Source: a virus. From it: DNA of 57,098 nucleotides. Positions 9,047-38,857 of this stretch are shown one piece after another; the first letter of the stretch is position 1; the number at the start of each line of letters is the position of its first letter. The stretch covers positions 1 through 57,098 of IMG/VR virus record IMGVR_UViG_3300042934_000352, one strand, 5' to 3'. Both the position numbers and the translations under genes were made by a program. A model generated the notes under the pieces. That model saw only the letters and a list, made by a program, of their open reading frames with translations. It ran no database searches and was not told the DNA's origin.

Positions 9047-9808
9047 GTGGCTGATATAAAGACTTGCAAGAAATGTAATGAGCAAAAAGAATTGACTGAA
9101 TTTAGAAAAGTTAACAGTAATAAAGATGGATTGGATACTAGGTGTAAGGAATGTAGAAAACAAGAATATAAAGAAAATCCAGCACAAAAGGAATACTACT
9201 ACAGACACCACGAGACATTGTTACAACGCGAAGCAAAGAAACGAAAAAATAAAGATCATAAAGAATATCATGTTCAATATACCCGAAAAGACAGAATAGA
9301 AAACAAAGAGAAAGTGTCACTGAGGTCATCAAAGTATAGGGAAAATAATAAAGAATATTATAATGACTATCAGAAAAAACGAAGGGTATTACGCAATTCA
9401 TTGGATGATATGTACCCGGAATATATAGAATCACAAGTTTATGATTGTTTCGGTGACAAGTGTTACTTAACAAATACCGAAGATAACGTTATACTAGATC
9501 ATTTTATACCTATCGGTTGGGGCCATGGAGGAACATATCACGGCAATCTTTATCCCTTAAATGTAAATATTAACTCAACAAAAAGTGGTAATAATCCATT
9601 TGAGATAATTGAGTTTATAAACGAAAAATATCAAATTGACATACATAAATGGAACAAATTAATTGAAACATTAGCTACATTAAACGGAGTAACTGTCGAT
9701 GAATTTAAGGAGTTTGTTTACTGGTGTGAAGCTAATAAACGAACAGTGGATGATATTCAAGCGAATCCTGTTCCATCTATTGAATTATGGAAATCGACTA
9801 CATTATAA
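9047..9808 (+). CDS. HNH homing endonuclease with N-terminal zinc finger
   Basis: A 253-residue nuclease. Residues 6-38 form a small zinc finger (CKKCNEQKELTEFRK ... CKEC), a module common in phage nucleases and also present at the C terminus of the protein encoded at 53998. A Lys/Arg/Tyr-rich stretch of about 80 residues follows, probably DNA-binding. The HNH core is C(FGDK)C ... VILDHFIPIGWGHGG ... NLYPLNVNINSTKSG. Start is GTG at 9047 after AGGATAGGA. It is free-standing and interrupts no gene here; it is likely a selfish element in the early operon. Confidence 0.83.
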   Translation: MADIKTCKKCNEQKELTEFRKVNSNKDGLDTRCKECRKQEYKENPAQKEYYYRHHETLLQREAKKRKNKDHKEYHVQYTRKDRIENKEKVSLRSSKYRENNKEYYNDYQKKRRVLRNSLDDMYPEYIESQVYDCFGDKCYLTNTEDNVILDHFIPIGWGHGGTYHGNLYPLNVNINSTKSGNNPFEIIEFINEKYQIDIHKWNKLIETLATLNGVTVDEFKEFVYWCEANKRTVDDIQANPVPSIELWKSTTL

Positions 9809-30574: not shown

Positions 30575-30847
30575 CTTTATGTTCCATTAAGTTCGCTACA
30601 CTTAATGCGTTCTCTTATGAACTGCTACATGTCGCCATATAGAACAGACTATATCAAAAACTCAATGAGTTCCTTCCCGTTTCCCGTTTCCCTATCCGAA
30701 GATAGCCCTCAATCGCTTAGGGGGTACGTCTTTCGACTAGTCGTTACACCTTCCTCAATAGAGGCTTGGCTCGGTATTATCTCAAGAGACTTTCACCGAA
30801 TTAGAGAAGTTTAGATATGGTATCACTACCATAAATGCCTAATATTA
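30575..30847 (-). other. Group I intron 2 in the tape measure gene (273 nt, no ORF)
   Basis: On the minus strand the segment contains the group I core: GAGCCAAGCC, GUGUAACGACUAG (R element) and UUGAUAUAGUCUG (S element). The 5' exon ends ...AACGCU, a required U; GGC within the intron (30837-30835) pairs with it including the U-G at the splice site, with one C-A mismatch further up. The intron ends in G (30575). Removal joins NISNKNA to TTVEKLAQG in frame. No endonuclease ORF is present. Confidence 0.85.
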
Positions 30848-31247
30848 AGCGTTTTTGTTAGAAATATTATTCCAAGAATCTATAACTTTCATGGAATTTT
30901 TCGTTTCTAAGTTAAATTGCACCATTGCAGAAGTTAAATATTCGGCTGCTTGGCCTGCTGAAACCTCACCTACGTTTGAGGTAATTAGACCTGCTTCCCC
31001 AAGATTAATTAAGTCTTGTTCCTTATAACCTTGTCGAGCGAATTCACCATATGCGTCTAATACTTCGGTCAATGTTTTACCAAATTTAGCAGCACTCGAA
31101 CTAGCATTGTCCATAATTTTAGCGAAATTTGTCTCTTCCGACATTACTTTTTTCAAATTCGTTAAACGAGTATCCACGTCAATTATTATTCCGACAGTAC
31201 TCTGAAGTGCCTGAATTGACCCATAAAATGCCGTTGTAGCTGCCATC
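30848..31247 (-). CDS. Tape measure protein, exon 2 (residues 322-455)
   Basis: 133 full codons plus the last base of codon 322. It encodes MAATTAFYGSIQALQSTVG and VDTRLTNLKKVMSEE, classic tape measure core motifs, and ends SWNNISNKNA. The following in-frame TAA belongs to intron 2. The ATG at 31246 is simply the second codon of the exon and has no ribosome site. Confidence 0.88.
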
Positions 31248-31571
31248 CATTGTTTGTATTAATTATCAATCGTGCTTTTGATAACTCACCAATTAAGGTG
31301 ACTATATGTTTCCATATAGACTAGACCATATCTTGACATTTACATGTCCTTCCCGTTTCAGCTCGCCATTTGGCACTTGCAAGCCTACGATACTCCCAAT
31401 AAGGTTTCTCTGGTCGTTGAGCGTTCCTCTATTCAAGGCTTCGTTGCTGATTGCCCAATCCATTTAATTTTCAAACATTCACGCTTAGGCTTATTTCATC
31501 CTTACGTTGTAGTTTAAATGGCTCTAAGGGGTTTCCAGCAGTTAAAGAAGTTTTACTCCTGCATGAATTTT
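31248..31571 (-). other. Group I intron 1 in the tape measure gene (324 nt, no ORF)
   Basis: Minus-strand core elements: GGGCAAUCAGCAACGAAGCC (P/Q side), CUCAACGACCAGAGAAACC (R) and UCAAGAUAUGGUCUAGUC (S). The 5' exon ends UCCUGU, which pairs with GCAGGA inside the intron, giving P1 with the required U-G at the cleavage site. The intron ends in G (31248). The junction restores codon 322 as GT+G (Val) and reads FPV-MAATTAFYG. Strongly supported by sequence, pairing and frame together. Confidence 0.9.
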
Positions 31572-32536
31572 ACAGGAAATTTAACCATCGCTGTTCTGAA
31601 TGCATCCATCATCGTCATTGATGAACGTGCAGTTTCTTTCGCTGAATTTTGGAAACTTTTTAATTGCTTCTCCATATGTTTAAGCGAATTACCAGCGTTA
31701 GTAGCAGTAGGGTCAATTTTTTCTAATGACTTTATTAATGCATTTACACCTGAACCATCAACTGTTTTTGAATGTGTTCTGAGTAGGTTTTTAGAATTCG
31801 AGATAAGCTTTTCTTGTAACGTCTTATTGTCGGCTTCTTTATTGAGATTGATGACAGCCTGACGTACTTTATCAATTTCTTTAGCATTCCTAGCACCATT
31901 GATAGCGTTATTTAACTTATTAAACATATCAGTAGTGAGTTTACCTTGATCATATAGCTTAACTAAAGATTCTCTAGTTTTATCTAAAGTTTTACCAGAG
32001 GTGTCAGCAACAGTGCTACCTGTTACTTTTCTCTCGTTGTTGTAATTAATAGTAGTACCAATACTACCATCTTTAAAAGTTTGAGAGCCACCAGTTAAAT
32101 TACCTTTACCATCAAACTTTTGTACTTCTTTTTGCTTTTGTCCTAATTTAGTAGTGGCGTCTATTAATTCACCAACAGCTTTGGTTTCCTTTTTAGTTGA
32201 TTCGGTACGCTTATCGGTTATGGTTTTTACTTTCTCAATGATTTCGCCACTTTTTAGATACTGTTTTGTTATTTCTTTTGTTACTCCATTGACATCCTTT
32301 AGGATTTCTTTCTCTTCCCGTATAACCTTATTTAAATCTTTAGCAACAACTCTATGATTTTCCATTGCCTTAGAGAAGTCAGTTAGAGTTTTTACGATTT
32401 TGTCATCTAATTCAACATTCAATTTAAGTTTGTTAATCTTTTTTTCGATACCCTTTAATGCAGTGTTGATCTCACCGATAGTAGCACCAACATTAAGCGT
32501 ACCAATTATTTTTAATCTTAAGTCGTTTCCTGCCAT
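31572..32536 (-). CDS. Tape measure protein, exon 1 (residues 1-321 plus part of 322)
   Basis: Start ATG 32536 follows AAAGGAGCGTCTAT. The N terminus (AGNDLRLKIIGTLNVGATIGEINTALKGIEKKI) is the usual tape measure opening, then a long helical/coiled-coil region rich in Lys and Glu. The exon ends MMDAFRTAMVKFPV at 31572. If unspliced, translation stops at TAA after FMQE within the intron, so the gene needs splicing to make a functional protein. Confidence 0.88.
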
Positions 32537-33312: not shown

Positions 33313-33351
33313 AGGTAAAATAAAAGCCACCTAATAATTAATTAGATGACT
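33313..33351 (-). terminator. Minus-strand terminator after the homing endonuclease at 33338
   Basis: AGUCAUCUAAU (33351-33341) pairs with AUUAGGUGGCU (33335-33325), 11 pairs with two U-G, followed by TTTTATTTTACC. The stem lies over the last codons of the endonuclease gene. Confidence 0.78.
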
Positions 33352-34624
33352 TCTGATAAATAGTATTTGCTCTCATAAAATAAGGTAAGATTATATTCTT
33401 ATTTAATTTTAGGTTATTGATTGACAATATATAATTATAACTATTGTAATCTTTAAGAATGCCATTGTTCTTAACATAGTCAATTATTAGCTTTTTGCAT
33501 AATTCTGGATTGTCATTTATATCTTTTTCCCATAGATACAAGATATTTACATTGTGATATTTTTTAAGATAAGTGTTTTTAGACTTATCTCTAATAACAT
33601 CTTTCTTTTGGATATCATGTAAAGAATCATAATCTTTATATTTAATTGGATTAGCGTGCCAATAGTCACCCATTACTTCAATACCCAAACAATTTTCTTT
33701 ATTATAGAAATCTAATACATAATACTTGAATGGAATTTCTTCTTCAAAATTCATACTTAATTCGTCAACAATTTCTTTAATTTTTATTTGAATTGACGTG
33801 TTAGTTTGAGGGAATTCACCATTTGCTATACGGTTGGCAGTGACAATTCTCATATGTTCGATTTGTTCTGGTGTTTTTGCTACACCAAATTGAGGGTGTT
33901 TTTCACCAACATAGTACATTGACCTAAATTTATAATAGCATTCTTGAGAACAAAATTTATCTTTGTTATTTTCTTTTCCCCATTTGTACGTTTTGTATTC
34001 TTTGTCGCACACTGTACATTTGGTTTTTATATCTTGATAATTATACATTTTGTCACCGAATAAATTTTCACTTCTAAAAGTTGCATAGCAATATCTTGAG
34101 CAAAAATGCCACTTATTAGTTTTAACTTTAGATTCATTCACTTCATATTCATTACCACAGTGGTCACACTTAACTAACTTCTTATCTTTTTTAGGATTGG
34201 GATTATGTTTAACAAGAGTGTCTTTAGCAACACAGCTTCTTGAACAATAGTGTTCACCATGTCCTTTAAATTCTGATGGTTTTTTATCAAATACTTTTCC
34301 ACAAACCTTACAATTTGTCTCAATACTTGTTTTTCTACTTTTCCCACGTAATTTTGCAGTTCCAGTGCGAGTTTCCCATATCCCTCTACATTTCGCATTA
34401 CAAAAATGATTGGTAGAATTTATAACACTTCCATACCTTTTATCGAGTATCTTATTGCAATTATCACATTTAACTTTTATTATTTCGTGTGAATTGGAAG
34501 ATAAATGTTCGATTGGTACGATTAATTCATCATGTAGTTTTGTATATACATATCCAAGTGATTCATAATGTTTTCTATTTGCTCCAACCCACTTCACTTT
34601 AATAGATTGATTAGGTAATATCAC
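33338..34624 (-). CDS. Homing endonuclease with four zinc fingers and Vsr-like nuclease domain
   Basis: Residues 50-245 hold four treble-clef-like fingers, each CxxC ... (F/Y)CS/N...C (CDNCNKILDKR, CKVCGKVFDKK, CDHCGNEYEV, CTVCDKEYKT), probably reading a long DNA site. The C-terminal domain (260-400) has FKYYVLDFYNKENCLGIEVMGDYWHANP, D..K..YLKK and VNILYLWEKDI, the D/E/H arrangement of Vsr-type mobile nucleases. Start is GTG 34624 after AAAGGAGATGG. A structured leader (34665-34732) carries a loop complementary to this ribosome site. The gene lies close to the intron-bearing tape measure gene and could help mobilise those introns; this is unproven. Confidence 0.83.
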   Translation of the reverse strand: MILPNQSIKVKWVGANRKHYESLGYVYTKLHDELIVPIEHLSSNSHEIIKVKCDNCNKILDKRYGSVINSTNHFCNAKCRGIWETRTGTAKLRGKSRKTSIETNCKVCGKVFDKKPSEFKGHGEHYCSRSCVAKDTLVKHNPNPKKDKKLVKCDHCGNEYEVNESKVKTNKWHFCSRYCYATFRSENLFGDKMYNYQDIKTKCTVCDKEYKTYKWGKENNKDKFCSQECYYKFRSMYYVGEKHPQFGVAKTPEQIEHMRIVTANRIANGEFPQTNTSIQIKIKEIVDELSMNFEEEIPFKYYVLDFYNKENCLGIEVMGDYWHANPIKYKDYDSLHDIQKKDVIRDKSKNTYLKKYHNVNILYLWEKDINDNPELCKKLIIDYVKNNGILKDYNSYNYILSINNLKLNKNIILPYFMRANTIYQKSSN

Positions 34625-34628
34625 TCAA

Positions 34629-34732
34629 ACCATCTCCTTTATTATATCTCCCATATATAAAGTAGGCAGACGTTAGTGGGGGAGATGGTATCCACATAAA
34701 CAACAGGTAGCTAATCCGTTGCAACGTCTGCC
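34629..34732 (-). ncRNA. Structured leader RNA of the 33338 endonuclease gene (RNA 1)
   Basis: Minus-strand RNA: an outer 10-bp stem GGCAGACGUU/AACGUCUGCC (34732-34723 with 34674-34665); hairpin A, CAACGG-AUUAGCUA-CC-u-GUUG (34721-34701); hairpin B, GUGG...CCAC (34695-34676), whose loop has ACCAUCUCC. That loop is exactly complementary, over nine bases, to GGAGAUGGU at 34637-34629, the ribosome binding site of the endonuclease. The same layout occurs at 38759-38825. A loop-to-ribosome-site pseudoknot would shut off translation. Confidence 0.7.
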
Positions 34733-34770
34733 AAAGTTGAAACCTAAATTAATAATATGTATATCACATT

Positions 34771-34989
34771 CTAATAATCTATAAACTCCGTCAATTCAAC
34801 ACTATCAGCCTCATAAGTTTCCACTTTAAACCGTTCACCATTTCCTGCGATAGCATACAATTCGAATACAGCAATTCTGAGAGGATGGAGCTTAAAGTTG
34901 GCTTCCAATAACGCTAAAGTTTCATCTGTGTTTTGGACAGGTAAACTGATATTGAGTGTTACTTTACCGAAAACGTGATTTTGATTCAT
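34771..34989 (-). CDS. Unknown small protein (72 aa)
   Basis: Begins MNQNHVFGKVTLNISLPVQNTDETLALLEANFKLHPLRIAVFELYAIAGNGERF. The product looks like a regular alpha/beta protein, with no known motif. The ATG lacks a ribosome binding site on this strand; oddly, TTTTAGGAGG is present in the opposite direction at 34996-35005. It therefore may be poorly translated, coupled to another start, or an inverted remnant. It is the nearest minus-strand gene to the RHH regulator, which is divergent. Confidence 0.5.
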   Translation of the reverse strand: MNQNHVFGKVTLNISLPVQNTDETLALLEANFKLHPLRIAVFELYAIAGNGERFKVETYEADSVELTEFIDY

Positions 34990-35109
34990 ATTAAATTTTA
35001 GGAGGAATTTAATACAAGTAAGATACCTTGTTGTTAATTATAATACCTTAACCTTAATGTATTGTAAAGTATTAATCTATAAATTTTTCCATATTATATT
35101 TTAATTTTA

Positions 35110-35139
35110 TTGCACAAATATGCATGTTTAATTTATAAT
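35110..35139 (+). promoter_or_regulatory. Promoter of the ribbon-helix-helix gene
   Basis: TTGCAC (35110-35115), 18-bp spacer, TATAAT (35134-35139). The expected start near 35146 lies just before two abutting palindromes, which fits repression by a protein bound downstream of the start. Confidence 0.7.
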
Positions 35140-35151
35140 AAGTTTATAAAG

Positions 35152-35181
35152 GGTTAATTAACCTTCTATAACGTTATAGAA
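35152..35181. promoter_or_regulatory. Two abutting operator-like palindromes
   Basis: GGTTAATTAACC (35152-35163) is followed directly by TTCTATAACGTTATAGAA (35164-35181), both perfect. TTAATTAAC resembles part of the conserved promoter spacer (AATTAACTTAG). Outer inverted copies TAATACCTTAA (near 35039) and TTAAGGTATTA (near 35184) flank the region. Probable autoregulatory operators. Confidence 0.65.
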
Positions 35182-35207
35182 TATTAAGGTATTAAATAGG
35201 AGGATGT

Positions 35208-35459
35208 ATGGCTAAAAAAGTATTGAAAAACCGAACGCAAATCACATCAACGCTTAGAAATGAATTAAATAATGAGTTAAAGATATTATCAGAAGAAACT
35301 GATATTCCAATATCTAAGCTATTAGATCAAGCGGTAGAATTACTTATTGAAAACAAAAGAGGAGTCCAACGTGACACTCAACGTCATCTAGCTCCACAAG
35401 GACTAGAAAGAGACACAAATAAATATCACATTGACATTAACCTACCCGTTAACGACTAG
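35208..35459 (+). CDS. Ribbon-helix-helix DNA-binding regulator (83 aa)
   Basis: The only plus-strand gene between 11.8 and 55.7 kb. Residues 8-52 form an RHH fold: a strand NRTQITSTL, then helices LRNELNNELKILSEETD and PISKLLDQAVELLIENK, as in CopG/Arc-type dimers. The remainder (NKRGVQRDTQRHLAPQG onward) is hydrophilic. It has its own promoter, palindromic operators and terminator, so it is an independently controlled regulator within the late block. It might set the timing of late genes or maintain lysogeny; which one cannot be told from sequence. Confidence 0.82.
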   Translation: MAKKVLKNRTQITSTLRNELNNELKILSEETDIPISKLLDQAVELLIENKRGVQRDTQRHLAPQGLERDTNKYHIDINLPVND

Positions 35460-35483
35460 CCTTTCTCAATGGAAGGCTTTTTT
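35458..35483 (+). terminator. Terminator of the ribbon-helix-helix gene
   Basis: AGCCTT (35458-35463) pairs with AAGGCT (35473-35478), followed by TTTTT. The stem includes the stop codon. Confidence 0.75.
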
Positions 35484-35549
35484 CTTTTAATTTCAAGTTG
35501 ACAGTCAAATCAATTCAACTGCCAAATTCAAATAAAAGGGGCGTTTAAA

Positions 35550-36578
35550 CTAAATATCATCCAAACTCTTTTTCTCTACTTTCTTAACTCCTTCAGAAGT
35601 GAAGAATTTCGAGAAATCATCCTCAGCTTCATTGTCATCATAAATTTCAATCATGTCGATAGATTCCCATCCAAAAAACTCTTTAATAATTTTATCCGGA
35701 ATGTTATTTGCTCTAAGTTTAGTAGTTAAATAGTGACGTAGGGAGTGGAAATAAAAATCCACACCTAAAAGCTTTGAAAATGAATTACTCCAACTCGAAA
35801 GGGTAGTATCGGAAGCAGGAATCCACTCTTCATTTCTCCTAGTTACAAATAAATCATCAGTAGTTATACCTAATCGCTCTCTTTCTTCCATCCACAAGTC
35901 GAAATATTCTTGGAATCCTGACTTTAAAACGAATTTATGTTTCTCAGCACCATTACGACCTCGACCCTTAATTTTTATCTTTATCGGAGTTTTGTAATAT
36001 GCATTATTTTGAATATATTCTTCCTTAAAGAAACTTACTTTGAATCTCAACAATTCGTTCAATCTAGCCCCTGAGTTAGCTGCTAAAGCAAACACACATG
36101 CTTTTTGATATTGTTTAGTTTCAACTAAAGATTGAAGTAAATTATTTACTTGTTCTGCGGTTAAAATAGTTTTCTCACGAACAGGTTTCTTTTGGGGCGA
36201 TTCGATTTTATTCACTATATTGCGAAAATCAGGGTATAGATCATCCATGATATTTTCAATAAAATTACAAAGACTACTCAAACAAGACTTTATACGTCTT
36301 GTTCTATTTGAACTGTGACTCCATGAGTTTATCGAGTAACCTTGAAATGCAATTATGTCACGTTTATTCAAGTCACCAATGAAACGATTACCACAATTAT
36401 GTAAAAGAAATATAAATATAATTCGCATATCATTTTCGTATTGTTTTATTGTTCCGGGTGATTTGTCCGTTGACATTAAATAGGTCTTCCACTCTTGAAG
36501 TAGTTGCTTATTTTGCGGATTAACTTTTTCCCAATCCGATTCATTAAATATTCGATTGTAAACTGTACCTCTAGCCAA
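35550..36578 (-). CDS. Tyrosine recombinase (phage integrase/XerC-D family)
   Basis: Residues 20-115 form a SAM-like DNA-binding domain (PGTIKQYENDMRIIFIFL). The catalytic domain (about 135-330) shows Arg172 (NSGARLNELLRF), a beta-hairpin Lys region (IKGRGRNGAEKHKF), HSLRHY (His278, Arg281), Trp304 (FFGWES) and nucleophile Tyr313 (IEIYDDN). All key positions are present, so it should be active. It lies inside the tail assembly region, an unusual place for an integrase, and is the second recombinase in the window. It may resolve multimers, or invert or mobilise a segment, rather than integrate the phage. Confidence 0.88.
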   Translation of the reverse strand: MARGTVYNRIFNESDWEKVNPQNKQLLQEWKTYLMSTDKSPGTIKQYENDMRIIFIFLLHNCGNRFIGDLNKRDIIAFQGYSINSWSHSSNRTRRIKSCLSSLCNFIENIMDDLYPDFRNIVNKIESPQKKPVREKTILTAEQVNNLLQSLVETKQYQKACVFALAANSGARLNELLRFKVSFFKEEYIQNNAYYKTPIKIKIKGRGRNGAEKHKFVLKSGFQEYFDLWMEERERLGITTDDLFVTRRNEEWIPASDTTLSSWSNSFSKLLGVDFYFHSLRHYLTTKLRANNIPDKIIKEFFGWESIDMIEIYDDNEAEDDFSKFFTSEGVKKVEKKSLDDI

Positions 36579-36595
36579 TTCTTATTCCACCTCCA

Positions 36596-37120
36596 TTAAT
36601 TACCATAACTATACGTTTCACCAGTTACGTCTTTACCACCGTGATACACTTGAACTACTAATCCATGCTTGTTACTTCTGTTAAACTTCTCTACAGCATT
36701 CGTGACATAATTCGTACCTTTGAAACGAGTAAAGTTTTCTATATCTAATGTAGAATCCAATTTGTTCCGCCAACCAGTGTTGAGTAACCAAGGAGTATAT
36801 CCGTCAGGCTGACCTTCACCAAATACAGAAGGGTGGTTAGCTAATCCATCATCAAAGTAAATCTCAATACTCCAATTATTAATACTTATTTTCTTAGGCT
36901 CACTTACTCGGAATGATTGTAATGTACGTCCAGTACGTTCATATACCACAGGGTCATATGAATTGAAATAAGCGTTTAATTCATCTTTGAGTAGTTTTTC
37001 TAATTCCTGTGCTGATTCACGAAGAATCTTTTTTATGCTAGTTTCATCTAATGCAGTAGCTTGACCTTTACTACTGTTGATCCATTTTTCTAATTCACGA
37101 ATATTATTAAATGTCGGCAT
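36596..37120 (-). CDS. Minor tail/neck-type protein (174 aa)
   Basis: Pattern like HK97 gp10-type tail completion proteins: helical N terminus (NNIRELEKWINSSKGQATALDETS ... LKDELNAYFNSYDPVVYERTGRTLQSF) followed by a beta-rich part with PSVFGEGQPDGYTPWLLNTGW. The ERTGRTLQSF turn is common to that group. It starts at ATG 37120, touching the stop of the preceding gene. Its place, between tail tube/chaperones and tape measure, is slightly unusual, so the assignment is tentative. Confidence 0.55.
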   Translation of the reverse strand: MPTFNNIRELEKWINSSKGQATALDETSIKKILRESAQELEKLLKDELNAYFNSYDPVVYERTGRTLQSFRVSEPKKISINNWSIEIYFDDGLANHPSVFGEGQPDGYTPWLLNTGWRNKLDSTLDIENFTRFKGTNYVTNAVEKFNRSNKHGLVVQVYHGGKDVTGETYSYGN

Positions 37121-37644
37121 TAAGCATCAACAACTTCCGCTTGAGCTAAACTCAAATTCTTAAACAATTCAGCATTCTTAATTTCCAACTTCCCAAACTC
37201 TTCTTGCATTTTCTCCGTCATTTTATCCATGTACATAGACGTTGCACCAAACTTAGCTAGGTGATCAAATACTTTTCGGATTTCAACAGGGAGGAAGATG
37301 TCATCTATAATTAAGTCGAATAAGCCTGCGTTAATGATGGATTCCATTTCATTGATTTGACCAACAAAAGTATCAGCTTTCAATTGGCTCTTTAGGTGAG
37401 TGAAGTGCTTGATGCACATGAACAGGATATAGTCATGGTATCGTTGTGCTGATAATTCAATTTCTTCGTCAACTTGACTTAGGATTGTTTGAATCTCAGT
37501 CAACATTGACTTAATGAGTAGGGGAGGGAAGGAAGGGTAAAATGTGATTGTGCTGCCATTGTCGAGCGTGTATTGTTCAAGTGTGTTGGTTTCTTTGGCG
37601 ATTTGTTTGATTGTGGATAGTTTAATGTCTGTTTTCTTGGACAT
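37120..37644 (-). CDS. Probable tail assembly chaperone-type protein (174 aa)
   Basis: A helical, acidic protein (MSKKTDIKLSTIKQIAKETN; STITFYPSFPPLLIKSMLTEIQTILSQVDEEIELSAQRYHDYILFMCIKHF) with no enzyme motif. Position between the tail tube gene and the tape measure gene is typical of tail assembly chaperones. The next gene begins at the stop without a gap. I saw no convincing slippery frameshift site, so a gpG/gpGT-type fusion is not supported. Confidence 0.55.
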   Translation of the reverse strand: MSKKTDIKLSTIKQIAKETNTLEQYTLDNGSTITFYPSFPPLLIKSMLTEIQTILSQVDEEIELSAQRYHDYILFMCIKHFTHLKSQLKADTFVGQINEMESIINAGLFDLIIDDIFLPVEIRKVFDHLAKFGATSMYMDKMTEKMQEEFGKLEIKNAELFKNLSLAQAEVVDA

Positions 37645-37680
37645 GTTGATTCCTCCTTGTGGATTCCTTTTTGGGCAAAT

Positions 37681-37708
37681 AAAAAAAACATCCTATTGGT
37701 TAGGATGT
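37681..37708 (-). terminator. Minus-strand terminator after the homing endonuclease at 37700
   Basis: ACATCCTA (minus, 37708-37701) pairs with TAGGATGT (37695-37688), followed by eight T. It overlaps the end of the endonuclease gene. Confidence 0.82.
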
Positions 37709-38722
37709 CTGTGAATATAATCTATCAAAATAGTCCTTATCCATTCTTATTAGATTACCGAAATTATAAGTTAATATATTTTTACCTAATCTAACATAAC
37801 CTTCGTCTATATTAATCTCTGAATTTGTACCATTATCATTCACGTATTCTAAACATTTATAAATTGCATCTAGTAAAATATCTTTTTCTGGTAATTTATC
37901 TCTGGTAGATACTAATCTAACAATCTTGTAACCTCGTCTTTTTAAATAGAATTCTCTTGCTATTTCTTTTTTATCAAATTCTTCATCTGTTAAATTACCG
38001 AACTTCACTTGTAGTCTATGACCGCCACCATCATATTCAAAAGCTATGTTGTCATTTAATACAATATCTATGTAATAATTCCCTAATGGATAATTTAATT
38101 TTCCACCTAATAATTCATGTAAGTATTTTTGGGTTCTTGATGTAGGTGCAGTATTGTTTTTGAAAAGCGTTCGTTTACTTTTTCGTTTAACTTCTTCATT
38201 TTGCAAACTATACTCAACACCGTATCTTTCTATATTAGTGTTTATTTGCTTTTGTCTAATTTCAGGGCTTTGAGCAGAGTATTCTACACCATAACGTTCC
38301 ATCATTGTAGATTTCATTTGATTCTGTACTTCTTGTGATTGAGCAGGATTTTCTACTCCATATCGAATGATATTTGTTTTCTTTATTTGGTTTTTCACAT
38401 CTTCTAATTGGAGTGTAGATTTCACACCATATTTGATCATGTTAACTTCTTCAGACTTAATAAACTTACACTTTTCACAAGCACATTTATTAACATATTC
38501 ATGATTTTTTACTCTATTGGTATAGTCATTCATTTTCATAAAATATACGGTATCACAATAATCACAAATAACTTTAACGTCACGATGACTTTTAGAAGAA
38601 AGGTCTTTTTGCTTAATGAGAAAAGGTTCGCCAATTTTTGTGAATATATATCCCTTTTGAGTATAGATTGGTTTACTTCTTCTTTCCCAAGTCATTTCAA
38701 TCAATTCATCTTCCAAGAACAT
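37700..38722 (-). CDS. Homing endonuclease with YGV repeats and Vsr-like nuclease domain
   Basis: A N-terminal zinc-finger region (CDYCD ... CACEKC, near 57-90) is followed by four repeats of about 24 residues, each built on (M/I)x(R/K)YGV(E/K)...Q..EV...(M/I)K(S/T)T, which resemble DNA-reading motifs of phage mobile nucleases. The C-terminal domain has NYYIDIVLNDNIAFEYDGGGHRLQ, and RGYKIVRLVSTRD, a D/ExDG..H core. ATG 38722 is chosen since GAAGGGAATG lies just before it; an in-frame TTG at 38761 lies within the leader. It is controlled by its own motif promoter and a structured leader like that of the 33338 gene. Confidence 0.82.
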   Translation of the reverse strand: MFLEDELIEMTWERRSKPIYTQKGYIFTKIGEPFLIKQKDLSSKSHRDVKVICDYCDTVYFMKMNDYTNRVKNHEYVNKCACEKCKFIKSEEVNMIKYGVKSTLQLEDVKNQIKKTNIIRYGVENPAQSQEVQNQMKSTMMERYGVEYSAQSPEIRQKQINTNIERYGVEYSLQNEEVKRKSKRTLFKNNTAPTSRTQKYLHELLGGKLNYPLGNYYIDIVLNDNIAFEYDGGGHRLQVKFGNLTDEEFDKKEIAREFYLKRRGYKIVRLVSTRDKLPEKDILLDAIYKCLEYVNDNGTNSEINIDEGYVRLGKNILTYNFGNLIRMDKDYFDRLYSQTS

Positions 38723-38728
38723 AATATC

Positions 38729-38825
38729 ATTCCCTTCTATGATTTCCCTTAAATTAATCAATGGTAAGAGGGATAAGGGAATCCCTCTTTATTAAGCATG
38801 GTAGCTAATCACGCTCTAACCATTG
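38729..38825 (-). ncRNA. Structured leader RNA of the 37700 endonuclease gene (RNA 2)
   Basis: Minus-strand RNA: outer 7-bp stem CAAUGGU/ACCAUUG (38825-38819 with 38765-38759); hairpin A, GCGUG-AUUAGCUAC-CAUGC (38814-38796), five pairs with a G-U that exists only on this strand; hairpin B, AAGAGGGAU-ucccuu-AUCCCUCUU (38789-38766). The hairpin B loop region AUUCCCUU is an exact 8-base complement of AAGGGAAU (38736-38729), the ribosome binding site of the endonuclease. It matches RNA 1 in layout and in the loop of hairpin A, but not in stem sequences. Confidence 0.7.
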
Positions 38826-38828
38826 TTT

Positions 38829-38857
38829 AATATATTAAGTTAATTAATATTAGTCAA
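38829..38857 (-). promoter_or_regulatory. Conserved phage promoter motif, copy 3 (endonuclease leader)
   Basis: Minus strand: TTGACT, 17-bp spacer AATATTAATTAACTTAA, TATATT. Its expected start, near 38822, falls at the first bases of the structured leader RNA 2, so the RNA structure is at the 5' end of the transcript. Confidence 0.75.

Follow-up and report, generated by a model that had tools for sequence, protein, structure and literature searches.

Two endonuclease genes in a viral genome, the IMG/VR record IMGVR_UViG_3300042934_000352, are each preceded by a leader RNA of the same fold. What could these leaders do, and do they occur on other genes? The whole stretch of 57,098 nucleotides (nt), called the window here, contains tail genes and two group I introns, and both leaders lie on its minus strand, 5' of the two endonuclease genes. 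Comparison with about 20 further members established a common fold on the sense strand, a loop that covaries with two sites in front of the gene, and an association with endonucleases. We consider it fairly probable that the leaders form a cis-acting RNA family working as a two-site translational switch, mainly on phage homing endonuclease genes of unrelated families.

Two leaders with one fold and a loop matched to the ribosome site

When folded alone, both leaders adopted a common three-way junction, with fold z values of -4.69 (leader 1) and -5.58 (leader 2), and no dinucleotide shuffle folded as well as the leader (0/200 for each). Leader 1 (34665-34732) consists of an outer stem of 10 base pairs (bp; 34723-34732 with 34665-34674), a 7-bp hairpin A (34700-34722) whose 9-nt loop AUUAGCUAC is at 34707-34715, a 4-nt linker, and a hairpin B (34676-34695) of 4 bp with a 12-nt loop. 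Leader 2 (38759-38825) is built in the same order from a 7-bp outer stem (38819-38825 with 38759-38765), a 7-bp hairpin A (38794-38816) with the 9-nt loop AUUAGCUAC, a 4-nt linker, and a hairpin B (38766-38789) of 9 bp with a 6-nt loop. The stem letters of hairpin A differ between the two leaders, whereas its length and loop are identical. The sequence GATTAGCTACC occurs twice in the record, precisely at the two leaders. Both are matched by the covariance model described below, by construction, as each is a seed of it.

Hairpin B carries an anti-Shine-Dalgarno sequence in each leader. In leader 1, ACCAUCUCC (34681-34689) is complementary over 9 nt to the ribosome site GGAGAUGGU (34629-34637). 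In leader 2, AUUCCCUU (38775-38782) is complementary over 8 nt to the ribosome site AAGGGAAU (38729-38736); two of these eight bases belong to the hairpin B stem, and without opening of the stem only 6 bp could form. An earlier note on this DNA had located both leaders, described their like folds and their shared UUAGCUA loop, and claimed that the loop of hairpin B is an exact complement of each gene's own ribosome site. Our coordinates, helices and pairings agree with it, apart from the use of stem bases in leader 2.

Two features go beyond that note. One is a variant of loop A, UAAUUA, found in other members. The other is a second sequence complementary to loop B, upstream of the ribosome site: GGGAGAU at 34646-34652 in leader 1 (7 bp with loop B), and UAAGGGAA at 38744-38751 in leader 2 (an 8-nt complement to loop B and its flank). 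We call this near-copy site 1, or the decoy, and the ribosome site itself site 2. In the nested folds of both window leaders, the ribosome site lies outside any leader helix, and the predicted pairing is a loop-to-site pseudoknot. Weak local pairing was also seen downstream of leader 2.

A leader family on unrelated endonuclease genes

About 20 further distinct members were recovered from phage contigs and from a few genomes of Bacillota by pattern and covariance-model searches. The pattern of GATTAGCTACC followed by AAGGAG matched 68 viral stretches, most of them without structure. The stem length around the core was bimodal among these matches, the two window leaders included: 13 cases had 6-8 bp, none had 5, and the rest had 1-4. 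Two of the 11 long-stem cases outside the window (L028 and L047) were doubtful; their hairpin A fits, the remainder is unconvincing, and they were excluded. A first covariance model with five seeds picked up L057 (E 5e-9) and the L063 group (about 1e-5). Model matches elsewhere were L096, a second copy in another phage, and L135 in a Paenibacillaceae genome (E 1.5e-8), and L193 was recovered by a second model; L057, L096, L135 and L193 were not seeds. Patterns also demanding CUCC and GGAG added L101, L103, L104, L105, L106, L109, L110, L113, L117 and L120, and a copy like that of L113 stands in a Bacilli genome (L192). Further leaders that combine the UUAGCUA hairpin with a fitting anti-ribosome loop, on which the earlier note had made its family depend, were thus found repeatedly and mostly on homing endonuclease genes.

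Some searches gave nothing usable. A pattern with G/C flanks returned chance matches only; L286 resembles group I intron sequence, and L194, L195, L196, L197, L097, L098 and L292 look like chance. DNA similarity searches of the phage collection gave no convincing leader copy. The two window endonucleases, used as protein queries, had few relatives in contig collections and none among genome contigs, and the model found no leader in the records of several of these relatives. A pattern search of 399 Bacillota genomes returned six matches, among which the Paenibacillus copy G014, already known, was the only member; the other five were judged by their matched letters alone, not by folding. Among sequenced Bacillota genomes the leader is seldom seen, and it is chiefly a phage feature. 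Contig NZ_VNJI01000011 of Paenibacillus cremeus JC52 carries a member. A host range within the Bacillota is only suggested, as the search outside this phylum covered two genomes.

The fold is conserved across the family. Among 20 aligned members, some of them closely related, standard pairs filled 97.4% of the helix cells. Changes on both sides of a pair occurred in all three helices (146 cells, versus 41.6 in shuffles), and pairing fell to 49% or less when the partner was slid by 1-3 columns. The slid and shuffled controls are far from the observed pairing despite an alignment fitted to the model. G-U cells outnumbered A-C/C-A cells by 26 to 1. This result assigns the fold to the sense-strand RNA of the endonuclease genes, and it disfavours a role of the structure at the DNA level. 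The joints of L058, L059, L104, L135, L154, L184, L185 and L188 often read AUA before hairpin A and GANA after it, which suggests a conserved junction core in a subset of members.

Loop B was compared with the stretch from the outer stem to the start codon in 22 members. The mean match of a loop to its own site was 6.95 nt, and it dropped to 3.06 when loops were exchanged among members (maximum 4.59 in 3000 trials). Two complementary sites were found in 19 of the 22 members, versus 5.7 after exchange (maximum 12); none of the 3000 trials reached the observed values. The second match is AU-only in two of the 19 (L101 and L063), so about 17 is a fairer count. Nine members picked without any loop-B requirement gave the same picture. 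The usual distance of site 1 upstream of site 2 is 10-20 nt. The pairing can change in kind, with GCCUA/UAGGC in L135 instead of CUCC/GGAG. L193, found by model only, has loop-B matches of 9 and 6 nt, and L182 has matches of 8 and 8 nt. L103 and L117 share 93% identity across about 800 bp, and their loop B, site 1 and site 2 are all altered in step. These comparisons show that loop B covaries with both sites, in line with the loop and ribosome-site covariation that the earlier note had claimed for the window. Because of the family-wide exchange tests, chance is excluded for the loop and site matches of the two window leaders.

In most members the gene behind the leader encodes a homing endonuclease; the exceptions are L103, L105, L182 and a remnant at L048. 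The enzymes belong to unrelated families. GIY-YIG genes stand downstream in L058, L027, L096, L101, L135 and L184, and in L104 by reading, and LAGLIDADG genes in L113, L120 and L110. HNH genes follow in L185, more weakly and below the Pfam cut-off in L106, L188 and L193, and by PHROG in L154. An endonuclease VII-like gene follows in L117, an HNH_repeat gene in L059, and CapR/DUF723 zinc-finger endonucleases in L057 and, by PHROG, in the L063 group. The window enzymes are PD-(D/E)XK-like by eye. In L048 (L085) the leader precedes the terminase small-subunit gene (terS), and in the related L113 (L124) the order is leader, LAGLIDADG gene, terS. L048 retains the leader, and the final codons of that LAGLIDADG gene are fused to where the outer stem ends; L048 is therefore a remnant of an endonuclease deletion. 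L103 and L117 share their upstream region, leader and first codons, and their coding sequences are unrelated (replication initiation-like and endonuclease VII-like, respectively).

Two sites for one loop: a proposed switch and its alternatives

In the mechanism we propose, the leader would fold as a three-way junction, often just downstream of a promoter-like sequence, and present loop B as an anti-Shine-Dalgarno sequence fitted to its own gene. Pairing of loop B with the true ribosome site as a pseudoknot would give the off state. Pairing with the near-copy decoy, which most members have, would leave the ribosome site free and give the on state. Hairpin A, with the loop AUUAGCUAC or AUUAAUUAC, would most likely be the sensor, and a host or phage factor would bias the choice of site. 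Judged by comparison only, this is a riboswitch-type layout, in which the conserved junction and loop A stand beside an expression platform formed by the optional pairing of loop B with the ribosome site. What we infer is a block of translation by the pairing, competition between the two sites, the assignment of the on state, and a sensing role of hairpin A.

The presence of a copy of the ribosome site makes a two-state switch likelier than a plain off-switch. The earlier note had proposed a translational off-switch family for mobile endonucleases, with the UUAGCUA loop as a possible binding site for a trans factor; the family is supported, and an off default state and a factor-bound loop A are putative. 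The plain version is nevertheless the main rival. Loop B would then do no more than mask the ribosome site, such as on read-through transcripts, and site 1 would be an extra masking point or have no role of its own; nothing would be sensed, and expression would come from leader-free transcripts or leaky opening. Such masking is documented for the phage endonuclease genes I-TevI and mobE (PMC3014915), and three members have a single site. A mask of this kind leaves unexplained both the match of site 1 to loop B in most members and the nearly invariant loop A, and we regard it as unlikely.

Loop A raises a second alternative. Its 9-nt sequence in the family is AUUAGCUAC, rarely AUUAAUUAC. In a scan with an open centre (GATTNNNTACC), structured matches had AGC only (three cases), plus AAT in L154. 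A second scan (GATTANNTACC) gave, among the matches listed, at least 14 structured cases with GC, the AU cases L184, L185, L187 and L188, and no convincing structured case with another centre; the loop centre of L182 is also AU. Both UAGCUA and UAAUUA are palindromic. Thus loop A (positions 3-8 of the 9-nt loop) could kiss the loop A of another leader, and translation would then depend on the concentration of the leader or on other leaders in the cell. The loop centre of structured members is GC or AU, with no convincing AC or GU among the matches listed, a change that preserves the palindrome, and HIV-1 (human immunodeficiency virus 1) employs a 6-nt palindromic loop (PMC7357161). However, the predicted loop-loop pairing is only -0.4 kcal/mol for UAAUUA versus -5.1 for UAGCUA; CG and convincing UA palindromes are absent among the matches listed, so the exact sequence matters; and the AU type could stem from a single change. 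Kissing is a weaker candidate than masking, with a small chance of being right. Because the predicted UAAUUA pairing is so weak, we prefer recognition by a putative partner. The loop may also resemble a stretch of 16S ribosomal RNA (GAUUAGCUAGU).

In a third alternative, the outer stem would act as a terminator together with a U-rich stretch behind it, and the leader would govern completion of the transcript. By reading, a U-rich stretch follows the outer stem in several members, such as L193, L113 and L058, but there is no clear U-run in, for example, L135, L103, L104 or the window leaders. Attenuation also leaves the match of loop B to both sites unexplained, and we find it improbable. Finally, the 68 mostly unstructured pattern matches indicate that the 11-mer alone recurs by chance, but a wholly accidental origin of the family, from a recurrent 11-mer, coincidental folds and purine-rich/pyrimidine-rich matches, is contradicted by the bimodal stem lengths, the covariation, the exchange test and the model matches to non-seed members, and can be dismissed.

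Several points weigh against the two-site switch on endonuclease genes. L103 (replication initiation-like), L105 and L182 precede genes not recognised as endonucleases. The endonuclease relatives examined in cultured phages have no leader, which argues that the leader is no fixed part of any single endonuclease family. Three of the 22 members lack a second site, and that of two further ones is only AU-rich. The U-rich tracts after the outer stem are also compatible with a terminator. The alignment leans toward structure because it was fitted to the model. The limits of loop B were drawn by hand from folds, in L154 after the complement had been seen. Most searches fixed the loop-A core and many required CUCC and GGAG, so the invariance of loop A and part of the ribosome-site match were selected for.

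Genomic setting and known systems

The first window endonuclease gene (33338-34624, minus strand) has a GTG start and encodes 428 amino acids. It matches PHROG HNH/homing endonuclease families, with weak Pfam matches below the cut-off; the N-terminal part of its product is zinc-finger-like and the C-terminal part PD-(D/E)XK-like by eye. The second (37700-38722, minus strand; 340 amino acids) matches Pfam DUF7487 (E 2.8e-19) and PHROG homing endonuclease (E 6e-53), and its ATG start was picked by the ribosome site. Upstream of leader 2, a promoter-like sequence was read at 38829-38857 (minus strand) by consensus match: TTGACT (38852-38857), 17 bases, TATATT (38829-38834). L096 has TTGACT, 17 bases and TATAAT. 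In 10 of 21 members, a -10 hexamer close to consensus stands 3-12 nt before the outer stem, compared with 0-7 in other windows of equal width. A dedicated promoter ahead of the leader is plausible, with a modest enrichment over the next window.

Other observations concern the surroundings. The two group I introns of the window (30625-30857 and 31302-31633, minus strand) lie in the tape-measure region, between parts of apparently one long open frame. A tyrosine recombinase gene (35550-36578, minus strand; Pfam Phage_integrase) stands among the tail genes, and a short gene adjoining leader 1 (35208-35459, plus strand) encodes a product that is ribbon-helix-helix regulator-like by eye. L057, too, has a recombinase-like gene directly upstream of its leader, and the endonuclease is followed by a tape-measure-like gene in L057 and L059. 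This neighbourhood of the window, L057 and L059 may be a common hot spot for different endonucleases. In L104, the sequence just upstream of the leader at 9781 resembles the 3' end of a transfer RNA gene by reading. L063 from 2710 and L126 from the GIY-YIG start contain TAG codons in frame and few stops of other kinds; TAG probably encodes an amino acid in these phages, and L063 translated with TAG as Q matches endonuclease families.

Structures at phage endonuclease genes are known. Local RNA structures lower the translation of T4 I-TevI and Aeromonas phage Aeh1 mobE, and presumably that of T4 segB; such silencing in T4-like phages has been described as local hairpins on single endonuclease genes (PMC3014915). 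The leaders resemble these hairpins in being RNA structures at the start of phage homing endonuclease genes that could hide the ribosome site. In the T4 type, however, each gene has been described with a helix of its own that takes in the ribosome site or start codon, whereas in the leaders the match to the site lies in a distal loop, accompanied by a decoy copy, and one architecture is conserved over unrelated nuclease families. Translational riboswitches of the preQ1 type are pseudoknots in which a loop of a folded leader can pair with the ribosome site. The leaders share this pairing option but differ in architecture and have no Rfam match. The HEARO or IscB-associated RNA, also structured, sits directly in front of a nuclease gene in mobile elements; it is alike in position, but much larger, known from one nuclease family, and again not linked to the leaders by Rfam. 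In the HIV-1 dimerisation loop, the palindrome occupies positions 3-8 of a 9-nt loop. Loop A has a palindrome of the same length but a different sequence, and pairing of its AU variant is predicted to be much weaker. The 6-nt palindrome of the HIV-1 dimerisation initiation hairpin loop is described in PMC7357161.

At the family gathering scores of Rfam 15, the whole window matches only the two group I introns; matches to the leader 1 region and 13 member loci (E up to 0.5) were noise, none of them credible. The earlier note, too, knew of no described class that fits. We found no description of a leader family common to unrelated nucleases, which is weak evidence since only open-licence papers were covered. 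We file the leader as a new RNA family with a form of control already known in kind, that of ribosome-site structures on phage endonuclease genes.

A broader reading, which we hold tentatively, is that this is a so far undescribed regulatory RNA class common to unrelated selfish nucleases of Bacillota phages, in which loop B would pick the ribosome site or the decoy and the nearly invariant loop A would read one common signal or other leaders. If this is true, independent mobile endonucleases are under one shared control code. One leader family over GIY-YIG, LAGLIDADG, HNH and PD-(D/E)XK-like enzymes implies a regulatory RNA that moves together with unrelated selfish genes or is acquired by them again and again, and these endonucleases may respond to a common signal. 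Should the decoy ribosome site function in the proposed way, it would be a compact switch design. The family offers a direct handle on how endonuclease genes spare their phage and when they turn on.

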